A stretch of DNA of 38,663 bases, from assembly GCA_029560585.1 (NCBI GenBank), contig JAKQKQ010000205.1, forward strand, positions 1-38,663, given 5' to 3'. The translations under genes were made by a program, and so were the position numbers. Of the stretch, positions 2,725-30,163 are shown in pieces. Under the pieces are notes generated by a model. That model was not told where the DNA came from. It saw nothing but the letters and a program-made list of their open reading frames with translations, and searched no databases. Numbering within the stretch: position 1 is the first letter of the stretch; each line of letters begins with the position of its first letter. This DNA comes from Verrucomicrobiota bacterium (GTDB lineage Bacteria; Verrucomicrobiota; Verrucomicrobiia; JADLBR01).

Positions 2725-3900
2725 TCAGACACCGACTCCCGCGCCATAGCGCTGCCGGTATCGGCCCGGCGGGCAGCCCTTGCGCTGGTGGAATAAGCGG
2801 CAGAAGTACTGGACGGACGCGAAGCCGCTCTCGCGCGCGACATCTGCCACGGGGAGATCGCCCGTCCGGAGCAGGTGCTCGGCGCGATCGAGCTGCGAGC
2901 CGAGGATTTCCTTGTGAACGGTCTTGCCGAGGATCTTTCGGAATCGCCCCTCGAGGGTGCTGACACTGACGCCCGTGTGTTTCGCCACATCGTTGACCTG
3001 GATTCGGTCCATGACGCGACTGTGGATGAATGTGACAGCGGCAGCGATGAGGGGATCGCGCGAATGGAAGACCGAGGTGGACGCGCGGGCCTCCAGGCCA
3101 ACCGGCGGAATCACGCGGCTGAGGGGCGCCTTCTGCCCGCGCAGCAGCATGTCCAGTGTCCTGGCCGCCTCCCAGCCGACGCCCTCGGCATCTTGAATCA
3201 CGCTGGACAGCGGGGGGTTCGCGAAAGAACACATCAGGGGGTCGTTATCGACGCCCACGACCGCCACGTCGGTCGGGACACGGAGACCGCTAATCCTGCA
3301 GGCTTCGAGGACATGGCGCGCTCGAACGTCATCGGCGGCAAAAAGACCGATGGGGGGCGTGAGGGAAACGAGCCACTTGCGGATCTCGTCCAGCATCGTG
3401 TCCCAGTCCCTCGCCTCGCCCCGCGACCCGGCGTATGTGTCGCAAGTCAGGCGCGACGCCTGGAGTGCGGAGGCGAACGCCTCGCCACGCTCCTTCGACC
3501 AGCCGTTGATGGCGTCGGTGCGATAGCCGCAGTAGGCGAAACTCGGGCAGGCGCGCTCCAGAAGGTGGGTGGCCGCCAGTCGGGCGACGCCGGGGTTGTC
3601 GGTGAAAACGTAGGGAGCGCGGGGCAAGAGGCGCCGACCGCCATAGCCGCCTCCCACGCCGACGACGGGGACCGCGGCGTGGCGCAGCGCGGCGGCGATC
3701 CGCGCATCGTCCAGATTGGCAATGACGCCATCGCCATGCCACGAGCGAAACTTTGGCACGCGCTGCGCGGGCTCGTCCTCGAGATAGATGCTCCAGCGGT
3801 CCCGGCGTCGGCCGTCCAGGTAACGTGCGATCCCGGCGGCGACCTTCCGGTCATAGTCCTTGTTGACGTCGAGGATAAGGGCAATCCGAAGCGTGCTCAT
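2725..3900 (-). CDS. XylR-type regulator (sugar-binding domain plus AraC HTH)
   Basis: About 391 residues from the ATG at 3900. The N-terminal two thirds is a LacI-type periplasmic-binding fold (RIALILDVNKDYDRKVAAGI, later VFTDNPGVARLAATHLLERA and VPTDVAVVGVDNDPLMC). Residues from about 285 form an AraC/XylS double helix-turn-helix (IQVNDVAKHTGVSVSTLEGRFRK and VADVARESGFASVQYFCRLFHQ). This is the architecture of E. coli XylR, a sugar-responsive activator, and is widespread in PVC bacteria. The ATG at 3900 is preferred over 3951 because homology begins at RIALIL. A perfect dyad lies 5-22 nt upstream of this start. It ends tail-to-tail with the LacI-type gene, 67 bp apart. Confidence 0.9.
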   Translation of the reverse strand: MSTLRIALILDVNKDYDRKVAAGIARYLDGRRRDRWSIYLEDEPAQRVPKFRSWHGDGVIANLDDARIAAALRHAAVPVVGVGGGYGGRRLLPRAPYVFTDNPGVARLAATHLLERACPSFAYCGYRTDAINGWSKERGEAFASALQASRLTCDTYAGSRGEARDWDTMLDEIRKWLVSLTPPIGLFAADDVRARHVLEACRISGLRVPTDVAVVGVDNDPLMCSFANPPLSSVIQDAEGVGWEAARTLDMLLRGQKAPLSRVIPPVGLEARASTSVFHSRDPLIAAAVTFIHSRVMDRIQVNDVAKHTGVSVSTLEGRFRKILGKTVHKEILGSQLDRAEHLLRTGDLPVADVARESGFASVQYFCRLFHQRKGCPPGRYRQRYGAGVGV

Positions 3901-3904
3901 CGTT

Positions 3905-3922
3905 CCATGCTGCATAGCATGG
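3905..3922. promoter_or_regulatory. Perfect dyad upstream of the XylR-type gene
   Basis: CCATGCT-GCAT-AGCATGG is a perfect 7-bp inverted repeat with a 4-nt centre, located 5 nt upstream of the chosen start of the XylR-type regulator. The position suits an autoregulatory operator or an mRNA hairpin covering the ribosome-binding site. The function is inferred from position only. Confidence 0.4.
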
Positions 3923-3984
3923 TCTGTTAGAAAATACAACTCCTTGGGCAAGGTTTGTGTCGGGCCTCGGGCCGCGCGGGCGTC

Positions 3985-4336
3985 TTAACGCGCGGGTCCG
4001 CCGGGTGATTCGTGGGGAGGCTTCTGCGGGCGCGATTGCTTTTGGATTGCGGTGGCAGAGCGAAGCGACGACACTGCTTCAGCACCGGGCGGGACGCCGG
4101 CTTCGCCGGTCGCTGATAGCGGCGGCGACGCCGCTGCTCTCCAAGACGCGAGGGGCGGGACTTTTTGGAGTGCGGCGCGCGAACGCGCCGCTTTGGCCGT
4201 TAGTCCGGCACAGGCCAAACGGTGGCGCCGTCCGGCGGTTGCCGGGCTCTGCCACCGCAGTCCAAAACCCTCCCGGCCCGGATTCTGGGTCGGGGCACGA
4301 TCCGCACCCGCGAAAAGTGCCCGAAGTTTCTCGCTA
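3985..4336. repeat. Dispersed palindromic element, copy A (long, nested)
   Basis: The outer arms TTTTGGATTGCGGTGGC (4040-4056) and GCCACCGCAGTCCAAAA (4251-4267) are inverted, with one mismatch. Beyond the right arm, the sequence to the TTTCTCGCTAG end matches copies B and C. The loop of about 194 bp holds a second module (about 4125-4226) that also occurs at 38240-38345, next to a partial D copy. It fills the gap between the sugar dehydrogenase gene and the XylR-type gene, and no gene was recognised in this gap. The left boundary is diverged and approximate. Confidence 0.75.
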
Positions 4337-23090: not shown

Positions 23091-23195
23091 TCCTATAGCC
23101 GAAGCTAACGGCCATTAGGAGTGGGCCCCGAATCGGCAATCGGCCAAGAGAGAGCCGGACCGATGAGGGGCCTTGCCGTTGTGCGGATCGGGCGG

Positions 23196-24002
23196 TCACC
23201 CGTCGTCTGCGGACTTGGATCGTGCGCCCTTGACCGGGACGTTGTCGATGAGCCGGGCCTTCCCCAGAAAGATGGCGGCGCAGAGCCTGCCGTTGGCGAC
23301 CTCGGCATAATCGACGCGGAATCCCTGACGTTTCAGCAGGCGGCGGGCTTCGGTGGCCGCGCGACTGGGGCCCAGCTTGGCGGCGGCGGCGAGCGCGCGG
23401 TGGAAGTGGGGCGCTCGGGCGCGCTCGGCGGGAGTGATGTATCGGTTGCGCGAACTCATGGCGAGGCCGTCGGGCTCGCGGGTGGTGGGGGAGATGATCA
23501 GGCGAACGGGGAAATGGAGATCGCGGATCATTCGGGCGATGACATCGCATTGCTGGGCGTCCTTTTGGCCGAACACGGCGACGTCGGGCAGGACGATGTT
23601 GAAGAGTTTGGCGACGACGGTCGTCACGCCACGGAAGTGAGTGGGCCGCGAGGTGCCGCAGCGACCTCGGGATTGTTGGGTTTCCTCCACCCAGGTGGAG
23701 TGATCGGCGGCGTACAATCCTGCCGGGGCGAAGAGGACATCGGCGCCGAGGCGGCGGCACGCGGTGGCATCTCGGCGAAACGTGCGCGGGTAGGCGGCGA
23801 GATCCTCGCGTGGGCCGAACTGGGTTGGGTTGACGTAGATCGAGACCACCACGACGTCCGCAGCGCTGCGCGCGCGGCGGATCAGGCTCAGGTGGCCGGC
23901 GTGCAGGGCCCCCATGGTCGGGACGAATGCGATGCGGAGACCCCGCCGCTTGCAACCGCGGGCGAACGATTGCATTCTTGCCGCCGAACGAATCACGCGC
24001 AT
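23196..24002 (-). CDS. panC: Pantothenate synthetase
   Basis: 268 residues (E. coli PanC has 283). It joins pantoate and beta-alanine using ATP in coenzyme A synthesis, in the cytoplasm. VPTMGALHAGHLSLI (27-41) is the ATP-binding HxGH region. VSIYVNPTQFGP, VFGQKDAQQ and TREPDGLAMSSRNRY (with the KMSKS-like MSSRN) follow in the usual order. The chosen start aligns residue-for-residue with E. coli PanC. It is divergent from dapL with only 14 bp between the start codons. Confidence 0.96.
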   Translation of the reverse strand: MRVIRSAARMQSFARGCKRRGLRIAFVPTMGALHAGHLSLIRRARSAADVVVVSIYVNPTQFGPREDLAAYPRTFRRDATACRRLGADVLFAPAGLYAADHSTWVEETQQSRGRCGTSRPTHFRGVTTVVAKLFNIVLPDVAVFGQKDAQQCDVIARMIRDLHFPVRLIISPTTREPDGLAMSSRNRYITPAERARAPHFHRALAAAAKLGPSRAATEARRLLKRQGFRVDYAEVANGRLCAAIFLGKARLIDNVPVKGARSKSADDG

Positions 24003-24016
24003 AACAGGTCATTCTT

Positions 24017-25258
24017 ATGCCAGAGAACTACATCCAGCAACTGTTTGCCGAGCGCATCGGCGGCGCCGGGTACGGCAAGGGCACGGCGATATACAAGTTT
24101 GAGAAGATCAAGCGGGCCAAGGCGGAGGCGCGCAAGGCGCATCCGGATACGGAGCTGTTGGATCTGGGGGTGGGGGAGCCCGATGAGATGGCTTTTCCCG
24201 AGGTGGTGGACACGCTGGCGGCAGAGGCCAGGCGGCCCGAGAACCGCGGCTATGCGGACAACGGCGACGAGATTCTCAAGCGATCGGCGGCCCGCTACAT
24301 GAGGGATGTGTGCGGGGTCGAGATCGATCCCGCAACGGAGGTGATACATTCGATTGGATCGAAGGCGGCGCTGTCGATCCTGCCGGCGTGTTTCATCAAC
24401 CCGGGCGACGTGGCGCTGATGACGAGCCCGGGATATCCGGTTTTTGGAACGCACGCGAAGTACTACGGGGGCGAAGTCTACAACCTTCCGCTTCGCGAGG
24501 AGAGCGGCTACCTGCCCGATCTCGACGCGATACCGCGGGACGTGCTGGGGCGCGCGAAGACGCTCGTGCTGAACTATCCGAACAACCCGACGGGCGCCAG
24601 CGCGACGCCGGAGTTCTTTCGGCGCGTGGTGGAGTTTGCCGTGCGGAACCGGATCGTGGTGATCCACGATTTTGCGTACGCGGCGCTCGTATTCGAGGGA
24701 CGCCCACTGAGTTTCCTGTCGGTGCCGGGGGCGAAGGACGTGGGGATCGAACTCCATTCTGCCAGCAAGAACTTCAACATGACGGGTTGGCGGTGTGGTT
24801 TTGTGGCGGGCAATCCGAAAGTCGTGCGGGCCTACGGGGACGTGAAGGACAACAGCGACTCCGGCCAATTCTTGGGGATCCAGCACGCGGTGGCGTACGC
24901 ATTCGATCATCCCGAGATCACGCGGGCGATTGCGGCGAAGTACTCGCGGCGGATGGACCTGCTCGTGCCGGCGCTGAAGCGCCTGGGTTTTTCGGCGAAG
25001 AAGCCGAAGGGTTCGTTCTTCCTGTATGTCCGTGCACCAAAGGCGATCGTGCGGGGCGGAGAGCGGGTCGCATTTCAGGCGGCCGAGGATTTCAGCCAGT
25101 TCCTTATCCGGGAGAAGTGCATCTCGACGGTGCCATGGGATGATGTCGGCGCCTACATCCGCTGGAGCGTGACCTTCCAGGCGGCGGGCGAGTCCGAGGA
25201 GCGCAGGGTCGTGGCCGAGGTGGAGCGCCGGCTCTCGGATCTCAAGCTGGAGTTCTGA
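24017..25258 (+). CDS. dapL: LL-diaminopimelate aminotransferase
   Basis: 413 residues, a fold-type I PLP aminotransferase. The N-terminus PENYIQQLFAERIGG, then GTAIYKFEKIKRAK, is characteristic of DapL. NYPNNPTGA binds the cofactor, and SASKNFNMTGWR carries the PLP lysine K251. It converts tetrahydrodipicolinate to LL-diaminopimelate in one step for lysine and peptidoglycan, the route used by Chlamydiae, Verrucomicrobia and some others. This supports a PVC-type host. The start is set by homology. Other class I aminotransferases are less likely given the N-terminal signature. Confidence 0.93.
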   Translation: MPENYIQQLFAERIGGAGYGKGTAIYKFEKIKRAKAEARKAHPDTELLDLGVGEPDEMAFPEVVDTLAAEARRPENRGYADNGDEILKRSAARYMRDVCGVEIDPATEVIHSIGSKAALSILPACFINPGDVALMTSPGYPVFGTHAKYYGGEVYNLPLREESGYLPDLDAIPRDVLGRAKTLVLNYPNNPTGASATPEFFRRVVEFAVRNRIVVIHDFAYAALVFEGRPLSFLSVPGAKDVGIELHSASKNFNMTGWRCGFVAGNPKVVRAYGDVKDNSDSGQFLGIQHAVAYAFDHPEITRAIAAKYSRRMDLLVPALKRLGFSAKKPKGSFFLYVRAPKAIVRGGERVAFQAAEDFSQFLIREKCISTVPWDDVGAYIRWSVTFQAAGESEERRVVAEVERRLSDLKLEF

Positions 25259-26829: not shown

Positions 26830-26892
26830 CGCGAACGTCGCGCATCACCGAACCGAGCTTTGGCGAGGGTTCGGTGGATGGGCTGGTTCGGG
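26830..26892 (-). other. Integron attC site of the toxin-antitoxin cassette (attC-c, 63 bp)
   Basis: On the plus strand the core boxes are CGCGAAC (26830-26836) and GTTCGGG (26886-26892). The arms CACCGAACC (26846-26854) and GGTTCGGTG (26868-26876) are perfectly inverted. Outside them, GCGCAT pairs with ATGGGC (one mismatch), with one extra G at 26877, the canonical bottom-strand extrahelical G. The R'' box on the cassette strand, CCCGAAC, is the exact complement of the first bases of this cassette (GTTCGGG, 27454-27448). The second expected extrahelical base is missing. Confidence 0.8.
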
Positions 26893-26893
26893 T

Positions 26894-27187
26894 TCATCTT
26901 AGGTGTCTCCTAATCCAGGTCGGGTCGCGTCGGCAGTCGACGACGGCGTGGACGCGGACAAGGTCGCTATCCAGGGTGTAGAAGACCGCGAGCGGAAACC
27001 TCCGCGAAAGTAAGCGGTGGTACTGGCGGTAGGCGACTCGATGGATCCCGGCGTAAACCGCTAGGGAATCGATGTCGGAATACAGGCTGTCGAGGAAATA
27101 GGCTCCGAGACCAGCCTCGTGACTCTCGTAGAACCGAAAACCGTCGACGAGGTCCCCCTCCGCCTTGTCGAGGATTTCAATCCTCAT
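26894..27187 (-). CDS. RelE/ParE-superfamily toxin
   Basis: 97 residues, a usual length for the family. The pattern AEGDLVDGFRFYESHEAGLGAYFLDSL, a central basic segment (RQYHRLLSRRFPLAVFYTLD) and the C-terminal VHAVVDCRRDPTWIRRHLR are typical of ParE/RelE toxins, which act as a ribosome-dependent RNase or gyrase poison when freed from antitoxin. Its ATG overlaps the antitoxin stop by 4 bp (ATGA). Its TGA ends one base before the attC-c core, so the pair is a cassette cargo that would stabilise the array. Confidence 0.9.
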   Translation of the reverse strand: MRIEILDKAEGDLVDGFRFYESHEAGLGAYFLDSLYSDIDSLAVYAGIHRVAYRQYHRLLSRRFPLAVFYTLDSDLVRVHAVVDCRRDPTWIRRHLR

Positions 27188-27402
27188 GATGACTGGTCTC
27201 GAATCCGCTTCTTCGCGGTCTCCCAGTCAGTGAACCGCGCCTCTCCCGCATCGATCTGTCGCTTGCGCTCGTCGAGAAGCTCCTTGTGCCAATCGGCCAC
27301 CGGAATGTCTCCCTCGTTCCTCGAAAGGTCCGCCCACAATGCCTCCATCGTGCGCAGCTTCTCCACAACGCTCATCTCCGCGAGTGGCAGCGTCACATCC
27401 AT
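27184..27402 (-). CDS. Addiction-module antitoxin
   Basis: 72 residues of the short antidote family that pairs with RelE/ParE toxins (VVEKLRTMEALWADLSRNEG, then ADWHKELLDERKRQIDAGE and a C-terminal W-E-xAKKRI segment). It probably binds and neutralises the downstream toxin, with which it overlaps by 4 bp. It starts 51 bp after the cassette boundary at 27453. The IS1182-like element ends directly upstream and has separated this cassette from the PhzF-like cassette. Confidence 0.88.
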   Translation of the reverse strand: MDVTLPLAEMSVVEKLRTMEALWADLSRNEGDIPVADWHKELLDERKRQIDAGEARFTDWETAKKRIRDQSS

Positions 27403-27454
27403 GCCAAAATCTTGCTTCGACCGGCGAGATTCGCAACTTCCAAATTTCCCGAAC

Positions 27455-29196
27455 GAGTCTGTCGAAAAACTATCTCGAAGTCAGGGCATTTGTTGGCTCG
27501 AGGCGGCCGAGGGGTATCTATCGAATGGGATCGATGGATTTCTGCGGGCCGGACTCCCGCGGGCCGGCCAACGCGTCGCCGGTCAGTTCCATCTTCGGCC
27601 CTTTCCGGCAACTTTCTCGAGGTTGTGGACGATGCAGTAGAGCTTCCACTGGGTGTTTACCTTGGCCCGGCCCCGCAGCGTGAAGCGGTCCAGGCCCTTC
27701 TGGGCGGCGATGTTGGCAAACACCGGCTCGACGATGCCGAGCCGCCGCGAGTAGATCCTGCGCCCCTCGGGCGTGTCGATCTTCCGTTTCATGGCGTGGG
27801 TCAGCCCGGTCGTGCCCTGTCTATAGAAGATGCGCACCTGCCGGGATGTTTTCTGGCCGGGATTTCTCAGGCACTTTAGCCGAAGTCGGCATCGGTCGCA
27901 CGCCCCCTGTGCGGCCCGGAAGCTGATGGCCATCGCCCCGTCGCGGTTCTTGAAGGTCGTCCCGCTGCGGTGCATGCGCACCCCGGCGGGGCAGATCAGC
28001 CGCCCGGAGCCCCGGTCGAAATGGAAGTCCGCTGGCACGAAGTGGCGCCGCCGGCTCCGGTACTGCATCTTGTGCTTGTCGGTCGGCCTCCGGTGGCGCC
28101 GGGCATCGGCGAAGCGCGGGTCCCGCGAGCGGAACTGCCTGTCGGGGATGTAGGCGTCGATCCCGGCGGCCGCGCAGGTCTTGAGATTCTCCACGGTATA
28201 GTATCCGGTGTCGGCGCTGACCACCGCCTCCTGCAGGGCGTCATCGCCCATGCCGGCGATCGCGAGGTTCACGGCCGCGCCCTCCAGCATCGGGGCGGCC
28301 GCGGCCCCGTCGTCGCCCTCCCCGAAGACCTCCGCGTGCACCACCACCTGGTGGGCGCCGTCCACGCACGCGTTGGCGTTGTAGCCCTGGACGATCCCGT
28401 GGGAGCTTTTCATCTTCGCCGACTCGTTGTCCGTCACGTTGGCCTGAACCTCCTCGCCCCGCCGACCGACCCGCGCCGGGTTCTCCGCAAGGAAGCGCTC
28501 GATCCTCTCGGCCTTCTTCTCCAGCCGCTCCAGGCGCCGGCGCTCCCCGCCGGGCCCGCCGCCTTCGCCACCGTCGATGCGCCGGTGTTCCTCCATCGCC
28601 TCCCGCACCAGCCCCCTGAGCTTGTCCCTCTTTCTGATCAGGTCGGACCGCTTGCCGCTCCACTCTTTGGACGCGTTCGACGACATCCTGCAGCCGTCGA
28701 TGGCGAAGTGAGTCCCCCCGAGCAGCCCCTCCTCGGCGCAGACAAGCAGCACCTGAGCGAAGAGGTCCTCGATCCTCTCCTTGCCCATGCCCTCGATGAA
28801 GGCCGCGATCGTGCTGTGGTCCGGCCTCTGCCCGCAGGCCAGCGCCATGAAGGTGACGTTCTCCCGGCAGGCCGCCTCCAGCCGGCGCGAGCCGTTCAGG
28901 CCCCTCGCGTAGCCGAAGAGCACCACCTTGAGCAGCACCCTCGGGTCGTAGGCCCTCCGCCCGGTCTCGTCGTTCTTGAACTCCGCGTCGAACGCACTCA
29001 GGTCCAGCCGCTCCTCCACCACGTAGTGGATCGTGTGCTCCAGCGTCCCGGGCACCAGCTGCTCACTTAGTGACACCGGCACCAGCTGCGTCTGGGAGTA
29101 ATCGCGGGGCTTGTATCTCGCCATCCCGGATACTAACTCGCCCGTTTGATCCGGACCAGAACAACCGCCCGAAAAAGGGGGTTTTTCGACAGTCTC
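27455..29196 (-). mobile_element. IS1182-like insertion sequence, 1742 bp, in an attC core
   Basis: The ends are 16-bp terminal inverted repeats with one mismatch: GAGTCTGTCGAAAAAC (27455-27470) and the complement of 29181-29196, GAGACTGTCGAAAAAC. It is flanked on both sides by AAC (27452-27454 and 29197-29199), which is either a 3-bp target duplication or the preserved core. Removing the IS and one AAC restores a complete 59-bp attC (CCCGAAC to GTTGGCA). It contains one full-length transposase gene. Confidence 0.88.
27583..29124 (-). CDS. IS1182-family transposase
   Basis: About 513 residues from the ATG at 29124 (MARYKPRDYSQTQLVPVSL). The N-terminal domain is YDPRVLLKVVLFGYARG with GQRPDHSTIAAF. 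The DDE catalytic domain follows: HFAIDGCRMSSNASKEW carries the first Asp, VVSADTGYYTVENL the second, and RRLGIVEPVFANIAAQKGLDRF the Glu. A cysteine cluster (CDRCRLRLKCLRNPG) precedes the last motif, as in IS1182 members. It appears intact and could be active. The upstream open frame to 29364 crosses the IS end and attC and is not part of the gene. Confidence 0.92.
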   Translation of the reverse strand: MARYKPRDYSQTQLVPVSLSEQLVPGTLEHTIHYVVEERLDLSAFDAEFKNDETGRRAYDPRVLLKVVLFGYARGLNGSRRLEAACRENVTFMALACGQRPDHSTIAAFIEGMGKERIEDLFAQVLLVCAEEGLLGGTHFAIDGCRMSSNASKEWSGKRSDLIRKRDKLRGLVREAMEEHRRIDGGEGGGPGGERRRLERLEKKAERIERFLAENPARVGRRGEEVQANVTDNESAKMKSSHGIVQGYNANACVDGAHQVVVHAEVFGEGDDGAAAAPMLEGAAVNLAIAGMGDDALQEAVVSADTGYYTVENLKTCAAAGIDAYIPDRQFRSRDPRFADARRHRRPTDKHKMQYRSRRRHFVPADFHFDRGSGRLICPAGVRMHRSGTTFKNRDGAMAISFRAAQGACDRCRLRLKCLRNPGQKTSRQVRIFYRQGTTGLTHAMKRKIDTPEGRRIYSRRLGIVEPVFANIAAQKGLDRFTLRGRAKVNTQWKLYCIVHNLEKVAGKGRRWN

Positions 29197-29251
29197 AACG
29201 TCAATCGTGAGCCACGCGCGGCAGCGCGTTGGCTCCACGATCTTGTTGGCA
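29197..29251 (-). other. Integron attC site of the PhzF cassette (attC-b, interrupted by the IS)
   Basis: On the plus strand, after AAC (29197-29199), ATCGT-GAGCCA-CGCGC pairs with GCGCG-T-TGGCTC-C-ACGAT, leaving two unpaired bases (T inner, C outer) on the arm next to GTTGGCA (29245-29251). The loop is only a few bases, so this is a compact 59-bp type site once CCCG from the far side of the IS is restored. The R'' box complements the start of its own cassette exactly (GTTGGCA at 30044-30038). Confidence 0.85.
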
Positions 29252-30031
29252 TTCGATTCGAATTGTTCCTTCCAAGTATGCCACCGTTCGCCCGGATATG
29301 AAGACGCGCTCGTTCTCAACCCGGCAGCGAAGGGTGCCCGTCCGCTTCGATAGCTGAAAAGCACTCATGGCGGACTTGTTCAAACGTTTAGCCCAATACG
29401 GTGCGAGCGTGCAATGTGCTGAACCCGTCACTGAATCTTCATCAACTCCATAATTCGGTGCAAAAAAACGGCTTACAAAATCCGCCGTCCGTCCCGGCGC
29501 AGTGACGATGACGCCCCGCAAATCAAGGGCCATCAATCGACGGAAATTTGGTGCCATTGCGATGATCTCTGCCTCGCTCTCGAATACAGCCATATAGTCC
29601 ATCGCGCGATAGCATGCGCTTGGACGCGAGCCCAACGCCTCGATCATCTCAGCAGGAGTCTCGCAAGGGACACCAACCTGAGCCGGAAAATCAAGGGTCA
29701 AGAGTTCATCTTCCCGAACAACGTACAGTGGACCACTGCGTGATTGAAACGTGACCCGTGAGTTGCCCGAGCCGCTCAAAACAAACAAAACGTGGGCGGC
29801 GGCCAACGTGGCATGTCCGCAAAGGTCAACTTCCTTCGTGGGGGTAAACCAGCGCAGATCGTAATGGCCATCCCTCTCGACATAGAACGCCGTTTCGGAC
29901 AGGTTGTTCTCAGCGGCAATCGACTGCAGCAATTCATCCGGCAACCAGTCATCGAGTGGGCATACAGCAGCGGGATTGCCCTGAAAAGGAGCCTCGGCAA
30001 ACGCATCGATCTGGTAGATTGGGAGCTTCAT
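29201..30031 (-). CDS. PhzF-family epimerase/isomerase-like protein (cassette gene)
   Basis: 276 residues. The PhzF/DAP-epimerase fold is shown by QIDAFAEAPFQGNPAAVCPL at the start, NNLSETAFY with the catalytic Glu, CGHATLAAAHVL, and DSVTGSAHC in the second lobe. The substrate is unknown; many PhzF relatives are uncharacterised. The last 16 or so codons (after IRIE) are read through attC-b, so the C-terminus is attC-encoded. The ATG lies 13 nt after the cassette boundary. G+C content is clearly lower than in flanking chromosomal genes, which fits lateral acquisition. Confidence 0.9.
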   Translation of the reverse strand: MKLPIYQIDAFAEAPFQGNPAAVCPLDDWLPDELLQSIAAENNLSETAFYVERDGHYDLRWFTPTKEVDLCGHATLAAAHVLFVLSGSGNSRVTFQSRSGPLYVVREDELLTLDFPAQVGVPCETPAEMIEALGSRPSACYRAMDYMAVFESEAEIIAMAPNFRRLMALDLRGVIVTAPGRTADFVSRFFAPNYGVDEDSVTGSAHCTLAPYWAKRLNKSAMSAFQLSKRTGTLRCRVENERVFISGRTVAYLEGTIRIECQQDRGANALPRVAHD

Positions 30032-30037
30032 GTCTTA

Positions 30038-30163
30038 TGCCAACGCCGCGGATGAGGTGACCGCCTGATCGATCCCTCGAAATCATGCTGGTCGGGAGTG
30101 TTCTCCCGTGCCGGCCCGAAACGAGAGCTTCTCTGGCGGTTCACCTCGATCCGCTGGTTAGCC
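30038..30163 (-). other. Integron attC site of cassette 1 (attC-a, 126 bp)
   Basis: On the plus strand, TGCCAAC (30038-30044) and GTTAGCC (30157-30163) are the core boxes. GCGGAT-GAGGTGA-CCGCC (30047-30064) pairs with GGCGG-T-TCACCTC-G-ATCCGC (30135-30154). All bases match except two extrahelical ones, T inner and G outer on the bottom strand, the same placement as in aadA-type attC sites. The long loop contains a further GGGAG/CTCCC hairpin. The R'' box complements the first 8 bases of its own cassette (GTTAGCCG, 30678-30671). Confidence 0.92.

Follow-up and report, generated by a model that had tools for sequence, protein, structure and literature searches.

Here we describe an insertion sequence (IS) of the IS1182 family that interrupts an integron attC site in a contig of a Verrucomicrobiota bacterium (JAKQKQ010000205.1; the whole stretch of 38,663 nucleotides analysed is called the window below). 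The element is intact and very probably belongs to a separate lineage of DDE elements, within the IS1182 family, that is specialised on attC. As far as the comparison of sequences can establish them, the position of insertion, a 3-bp target duplication, the polarity towards the R' box, the recurrence across the clade and a near-universal co-orientation of transposase gene and cassettes are demonstrated.

Structure and family of the insertion sequence

The IS occupies positions 27455..29196 on the minus strand (1,742 bp) and is bounded by 16-bp terminal inverted repeats with one mismatch, as had been stated in the first-pass annotation of this DNA. The left repeat, IRL (GAGTCTGTCGAAAAAC, 27455..27470, plus strand), lies at the 3' end of the transposase gene, and the right repeat, IRR (GTTTTTCGACAGTCTC; minus strand GAGACTGTCGAAAAAC; 29181..29196, minus strand), lies at the 5' end of the gene and adjoins the attC hairpin. 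The span originally given for the element, 27452-29199, takes in both copies of a flanking AAC triplet, the IS proper lying inside it. The single open reading frame (ORF; 27583..29124, minus strand) encodes an intact transposase of 513 amino acids, which scored 296.5 bits against the NCBIfam model NF033551 (transpos_IS1182; cut-off 270) and matched only DDE_Tnp_1_6, DUF772 and DDE_Tnp_1 in Pfam, with no DEDD (IS110/IS1111) domain of the kind carried by IS1111-attC elements. One DDE transposase ORF between short terminal inverted repeats is the architecture of the IS1182 family, whose members are about 1.3-1.95 kb long, and by all these features the element is classed as an intact IS1182-family insertion sequence. 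Residues D143, D305 and E466, invariant in an alignment of 12 relatives, are candidates for the DDE triad. Identical IS copies at different attC sites are a sign, at the sequence level, of recent movement.

The interrupted attC site

The IS lies between two copies of AAC at the R' box of an attC, as first noticed in the window. On the attC strand (minus) both copies read GTT; the one at 27452..27454 starts a toxin-antitoxin cassette, and the one at 29197..29199 is the R' core joined to the attC hairpin. Removal of the IS and one AAC rejoins the flanks into a 59-nt attC (minus strand 29251 to 29197, then 27451 to 27448), made up of the attC of a PhzF-like cassette from R'' to the R' GTT (29197..29251, minus strand) and the outer four bases of R', CGGG (27448..27451, minus strand). 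The R''/R' triplets are AAC/GTT, the L boxes pair at 8/8 positions with an extra base in L'', and the rejoined strand folds at z = -3.7 relative to shuffled sequences; the core and the palindromic arms with their extra L'' base are those of an attC. The site had been called a perfect 59-bp attC, and its length, core and L geometry bear this out, but the outer bases (TGCCAAC / GTTCGGG, that is TGCC/CGGG) miss the RYYYAAC / GTTRRRY consensus that many relatives' sites match. What is canonical here is confined to the AAC/GTT core and the L geometry.

Survey of related copies

A scan of GTDB genomes yielded 55 loci, nearly all at 37-65% identity. Further copies came from the genome of the window and from a congener, from G084 (a finished genome of the same class), from Microbulbifer sp. 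HZ11 (G286) and from plasmids of Pseudoalteromonas and Catenovulum, which brought the total to 75 copies from several phyla, 50 with both ends readable and 25 with one. No relatives came from viral contigs.

Forty-five of the 50 copies readable at both ends were flanked by GTT on each side, at the R' end of an attC. The other five had TTT/TTT (L035), CAA/CAA (L030), TGC/TGC (L029), TGC/TTG (L073, ambiguous and also readable as TTGC/TTGC) and AAC/AAC (L118). Where one end was readable it bore GTT in 23 copies and AAC in two (L060, L068). There were 46 distinct left and 45 distinct right GTT flanks, copies within one genome being not fully independent. The transposase 5' end nearly always adjoined the attC hairpin, and the other IS end led to GTT and then the next cassette. 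All six complete copies in G084 and all seven in Microbulbifer conformed to this pattern; both genomes carry intI genes, and in their arrays the IS copies are surrounded by many IS-free attC sites.

The first-pass annotation had asked whether the window represented a distinct specificity or a single chance event, and had proposed collecting the flanks of other copies. With 75 copies examined, the survey strongly favours a distinct specificity and refutes the single chance event, to which we assign a negligible probability. A further reading, that the IS inserts widely and is retained only in cassette arrays where it does no harm, draws on the general tolerance of such arrays to insertions. We regard it as scarcely credible, because tolerance does not account for single-base precision at R' at dozens of independent sites or for the polarity described below, and because outgroup IS1182 elements are located elsewhere.

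Which end of attC is used

Because an earlier, loose attC score gave no more than a moderate distinction between real and null sites, it was replaced by a rule of fixed geometry, which required an upstream AAC, spacers 4-6 nt long, L arms of 8 bp with a single extra base in L'', and 7 or more pairs. This strict rule was satisfied at 26 of 47 GTT sites, compared with 2.5% of the 4,933 remaining GTTs of these loci, an enrichment of 22-fold; when the extra base was moved to the opposite arm, two sites passed. Scored site by site, the extra base lay on the L'' side in 38 cases and on the other side in 4, with 5 ties. The two extrahelical bases of attC share a single side of the folded site (PMC3053210), and this polarity therefore places the IS at R' and not at the symmetric R''.

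The target triplet and IS-free sites

In Microbulbifer, the upstream flank of one copy (L065) was identical at 206/206 positions, across the junction, to an IS-free attC of the same genome with one GTT, and its downstream cassette also occurred IS-free behind another attC at 94% identity. The cassette after one G084 copy (L092) was likewise found IS-free after another attC (GTTAGCCATGAAGG...), and that after a Pseudoalteromonas copy (L116) was found IS-free and joined at a single GTT. Since empty sites have one GTT and occupied sites two, the triplet is, by this comparison, a true 3-bp target duplication and not part of the IS. The alternative that AAC belongs to the IS end was rejected, as other triplets (TTT, CAA, TGC) occur symmetrically. 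L035, which is nested in the GTT clade, has TTT at each of its ends and occupies an attC with TTTAGGC as its R', so the duplicated triplet derives from the target and the site was usable despite its mutated triplet. For the window IS itself no exact empty site was found among 24 relatives; in one of them (G025) the antitoxin cassette occurs IS-free at 86% identity, at a junction without a clear GTT.

These flanks also bear on whether the IS could be a gene cassette placed by IntI, with the flanking GTTs as ordinary cassette boundaries. In favour of this, GTT also marks the limits of cassettes inserted by IntI, the GTTGAGC formed at many IS ends agrees with GTTRRRY, and the host genomes carry intI. 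The element's 3' end, however, has no attC hairpin of its own and stops directly in the terminal inverted repeat; its ends are inverted repeats of the kind typical of an intact DDE element, there are reversed copies (L118), and neither the CAA/CAA and TGC/TGC repeats outside attC nor the TTT/TTT at attC would be yielded by IntI cutting at G/TT. This explanation is very improbable and was rejected for the lack of an own attC. The initial placement of the IS at the triplet where IntI cuts was correct as to the triplet; the GTT is bracketed by a staggered joint and is not cut at G/TT.

Clade and outgroups

A maximum-likelihood tree, whose deeper joins are uncertain owing to long branches, grouped the attC users with their nearest relatives in a clade of 44 rows with support 99/98, spanning Pseudomonadota, Thermodesulfobacteriota, Nitrospirota, Spirochaetota and metagenome-assembled genomes labelled Myxococcota. 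Copies lying elsewhere or having another duplication had been named as evidence against an attC specificity. A nested group (L029, L030 and L073, with L060 at its base) has other targets, which looks like a later change in which the attC habit was lost, and a few copies are reversed. Two members of the group (L029 and L073, TGC/TTGC) have the target ACTTGCCA in common, a hint that there may be another specific site.

Outgroup IS1182 elements were flanked by TCGG, CTAG, TAAT and TCATGTG (L138, L139, L140 and L143), and one (L121) lay inside a palindrome. The first four have the family and architecture of the window IS, but not its GTT. The distant IS1182-like element L143 (G030:C17) has perfect GATTCCGCTGAAAAACC ends and a 7-bp repeat, TCATGTG, compared with 3-4 bp in the rest.

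Comparison with known systems

One end of attC is also the target of the IS1111-attC group, which includes ISKpn4, ISPst6 and their relatives (Tetu and Holmes 2008; Post and Hall 2009; as cited in PMC11187229). Insertion at one attC end is what the window IS has in common with them; they have a DEDD transposase, subterminal repeats and a seekRNA guide, whereas the window IS has a DDE transposase without an IS110/IS1111 domain, 16-bp terminal repeats and a 3-bp duplication. IS1272, of the same transposase family as the window IS, replaces generic stem-loops without target duplication (PMC5678879). Inverted-repeat (hairpin) targets thus occur among related elements, but where IS1272 loses its target hairpin, the attC lineage retains it and duplicates the triplet at the R' foot, and no such replacement was seen here. 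The group IIC-attC introns also use the attC hairpin as a target, but they are retro-elements that insert through RNA at R'' of the bottom strand (TTGT/T; PMC7923331), whereas the window IS is a DNA element at R'.

The attC targeting of this IS1182 lineage is convergent with that of the IS1111-attC elements and the group IIC-attC introns. Within the open-access literature, exact attC targeting has been described only for unrelated mobile elements and no account of attC-targeting IS1182 elements was found; ISfinder and subscription papers lay outside this search, and priority is not proven. The independent origin in a DDE family marks integron cassette boundaries as a repeatedly exploited landing site, and the lineage offers a test system for recognition of a structured target by a DDE transposase without a known guide.

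Proposed mechanism

We propose that the transposase would attach the IS ends to the two strands at points flanking the GTT of R', located at the hairpin's 3' foot, and that repair would copy the triplet, giving the order hairpin-GTT, IS, GTT-RRRY-next cassette. Because the transposase 5' end nearly always points towards the hairpin, the gene is co-directional with the cassettes. The transposase may read the folded hairpin (as a cruciform or single strand) and not merely double-stranded sequence. We infer such recognition because R' and R'' are told apart despite having the same core, TTT is tolerated and the family targets hairpins (IS1272). In most copies GTT is followed by the GAG of the IS end, which leaves the hairpin with an R'-like GTTGAG and makes the IS the 5' part of the next cassette; the retained R' may then be usable, and the IS could travel with the downstream gene in a larger cassette. 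The whole scheme, in which a DDE lineage over several phyla evolved folded-hairpin reading and exact R' landing, the upstream attC remains functional, and the IS joins the next mobile cassette and parasitises integron recombination, is put forward tentatively, as a possibility somewhat short of even.

It is also conceivable, if rather unlikely, that double-stranded sequence alone is recognised and attC is chosen for a CGTTA-type core, the hairpin being irrelevant. There is a short sequence signal at the IS sites, with C before GTT in 43 of 46 and A after it in 35 of 45. However, the R'' box has the same core inverted, and yet R' is preferred by 38 to 4; the triplet may be TTT (L035), which speaks against recognition of the core only; and other family members target palindromes (IS1272, PMC5678879; L121 in the survey).

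Several points weigh against a lineage specialised on attC. The three nested relatives L029, L030 and L073 are inserted outside attC. The three AAC-flanked copies (L060 and L068, at their right flanks, and L118, at 3001-4149 and its right flank) have an attC-like hairpin on the transposase 3' side, so orientation relative to attC is not absolute. About 45% of the IS sites fail the strict hairpin rule, either since the rule is crude or since some attCs are degenerate. The data do not distinguish reading of the hairpin structure from reading of a long motif in double-stranded DNA, and the case is drawn from genome data, no transposition having been observed.

Cassette array of the window and other observations

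On the minus strand of the window the order is attC-like site, PhzF gene, attC hairpin, GTT, IS, GTT, antitoxin and putative toxin genes, attC-like site. The two outer attC-like sites share the polarity of the interrupted attC, which puts the IS within a cassette array; the first (30038..30163, 126 nt, GTT at 30044) pairs at L 8/8 and R 2/4, and the second (26830..26892, 63 nt, GTT at 26836) at L 8/8 and R 3/4, both on the minus strand. The neighbours had been named as PhzF and toxin-antitoxin cassettes, and Pfam supports the PhzF-like gene (29201..30031, minus strand; PF02567, E 5.7e-60) and the antitoxin, an addiction module component (27184..27402, minus strand; PF09720, E 4.4e-14). The ORF of the putative toxin partner (26894..27187, minus strand; 97 amino acids) overlaps the antitoxin and has no Pfam match; a toxin role is suggested by its position. 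The 3' end of the PhzF gene enters the attC, so that its final codons are encoded by the hairpin itself (29201-29251). No intI was found on the window contig; three complete intI genes lie on other contigs of the genome (C281, C48 and C238), and a second, contig-truncated IS copy is some 2.5 kb away from one of the three.

The conserved IS/attC joint makes such elements easy to annotate. In the contig G000:C184, a stretch of about 1.07 kb (23143-24209; L012, L013) has two IS-like ends, with TTT on one side and GTT on the other, and is possibly a decayed or non-autonomous derivative. Near the IS of L118, a gene with a group II intron maturase domain (1733-2245) lies beside a BrnT toxin gene, so that mobile elements of two kinds are found close together. 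The IS copies are also a source of cassette rearrangement. In G084 (C1, 1418000-1445000; L106/L107) three identical copies enclose two exact tandem units of 4,903 bp, each consisting of the IS and about 3 kb of cassettes and ending in the same attC; this suggests IS-mediated duplication of cassette blocks, and the repeats would fit unequal recombination between IS copies.
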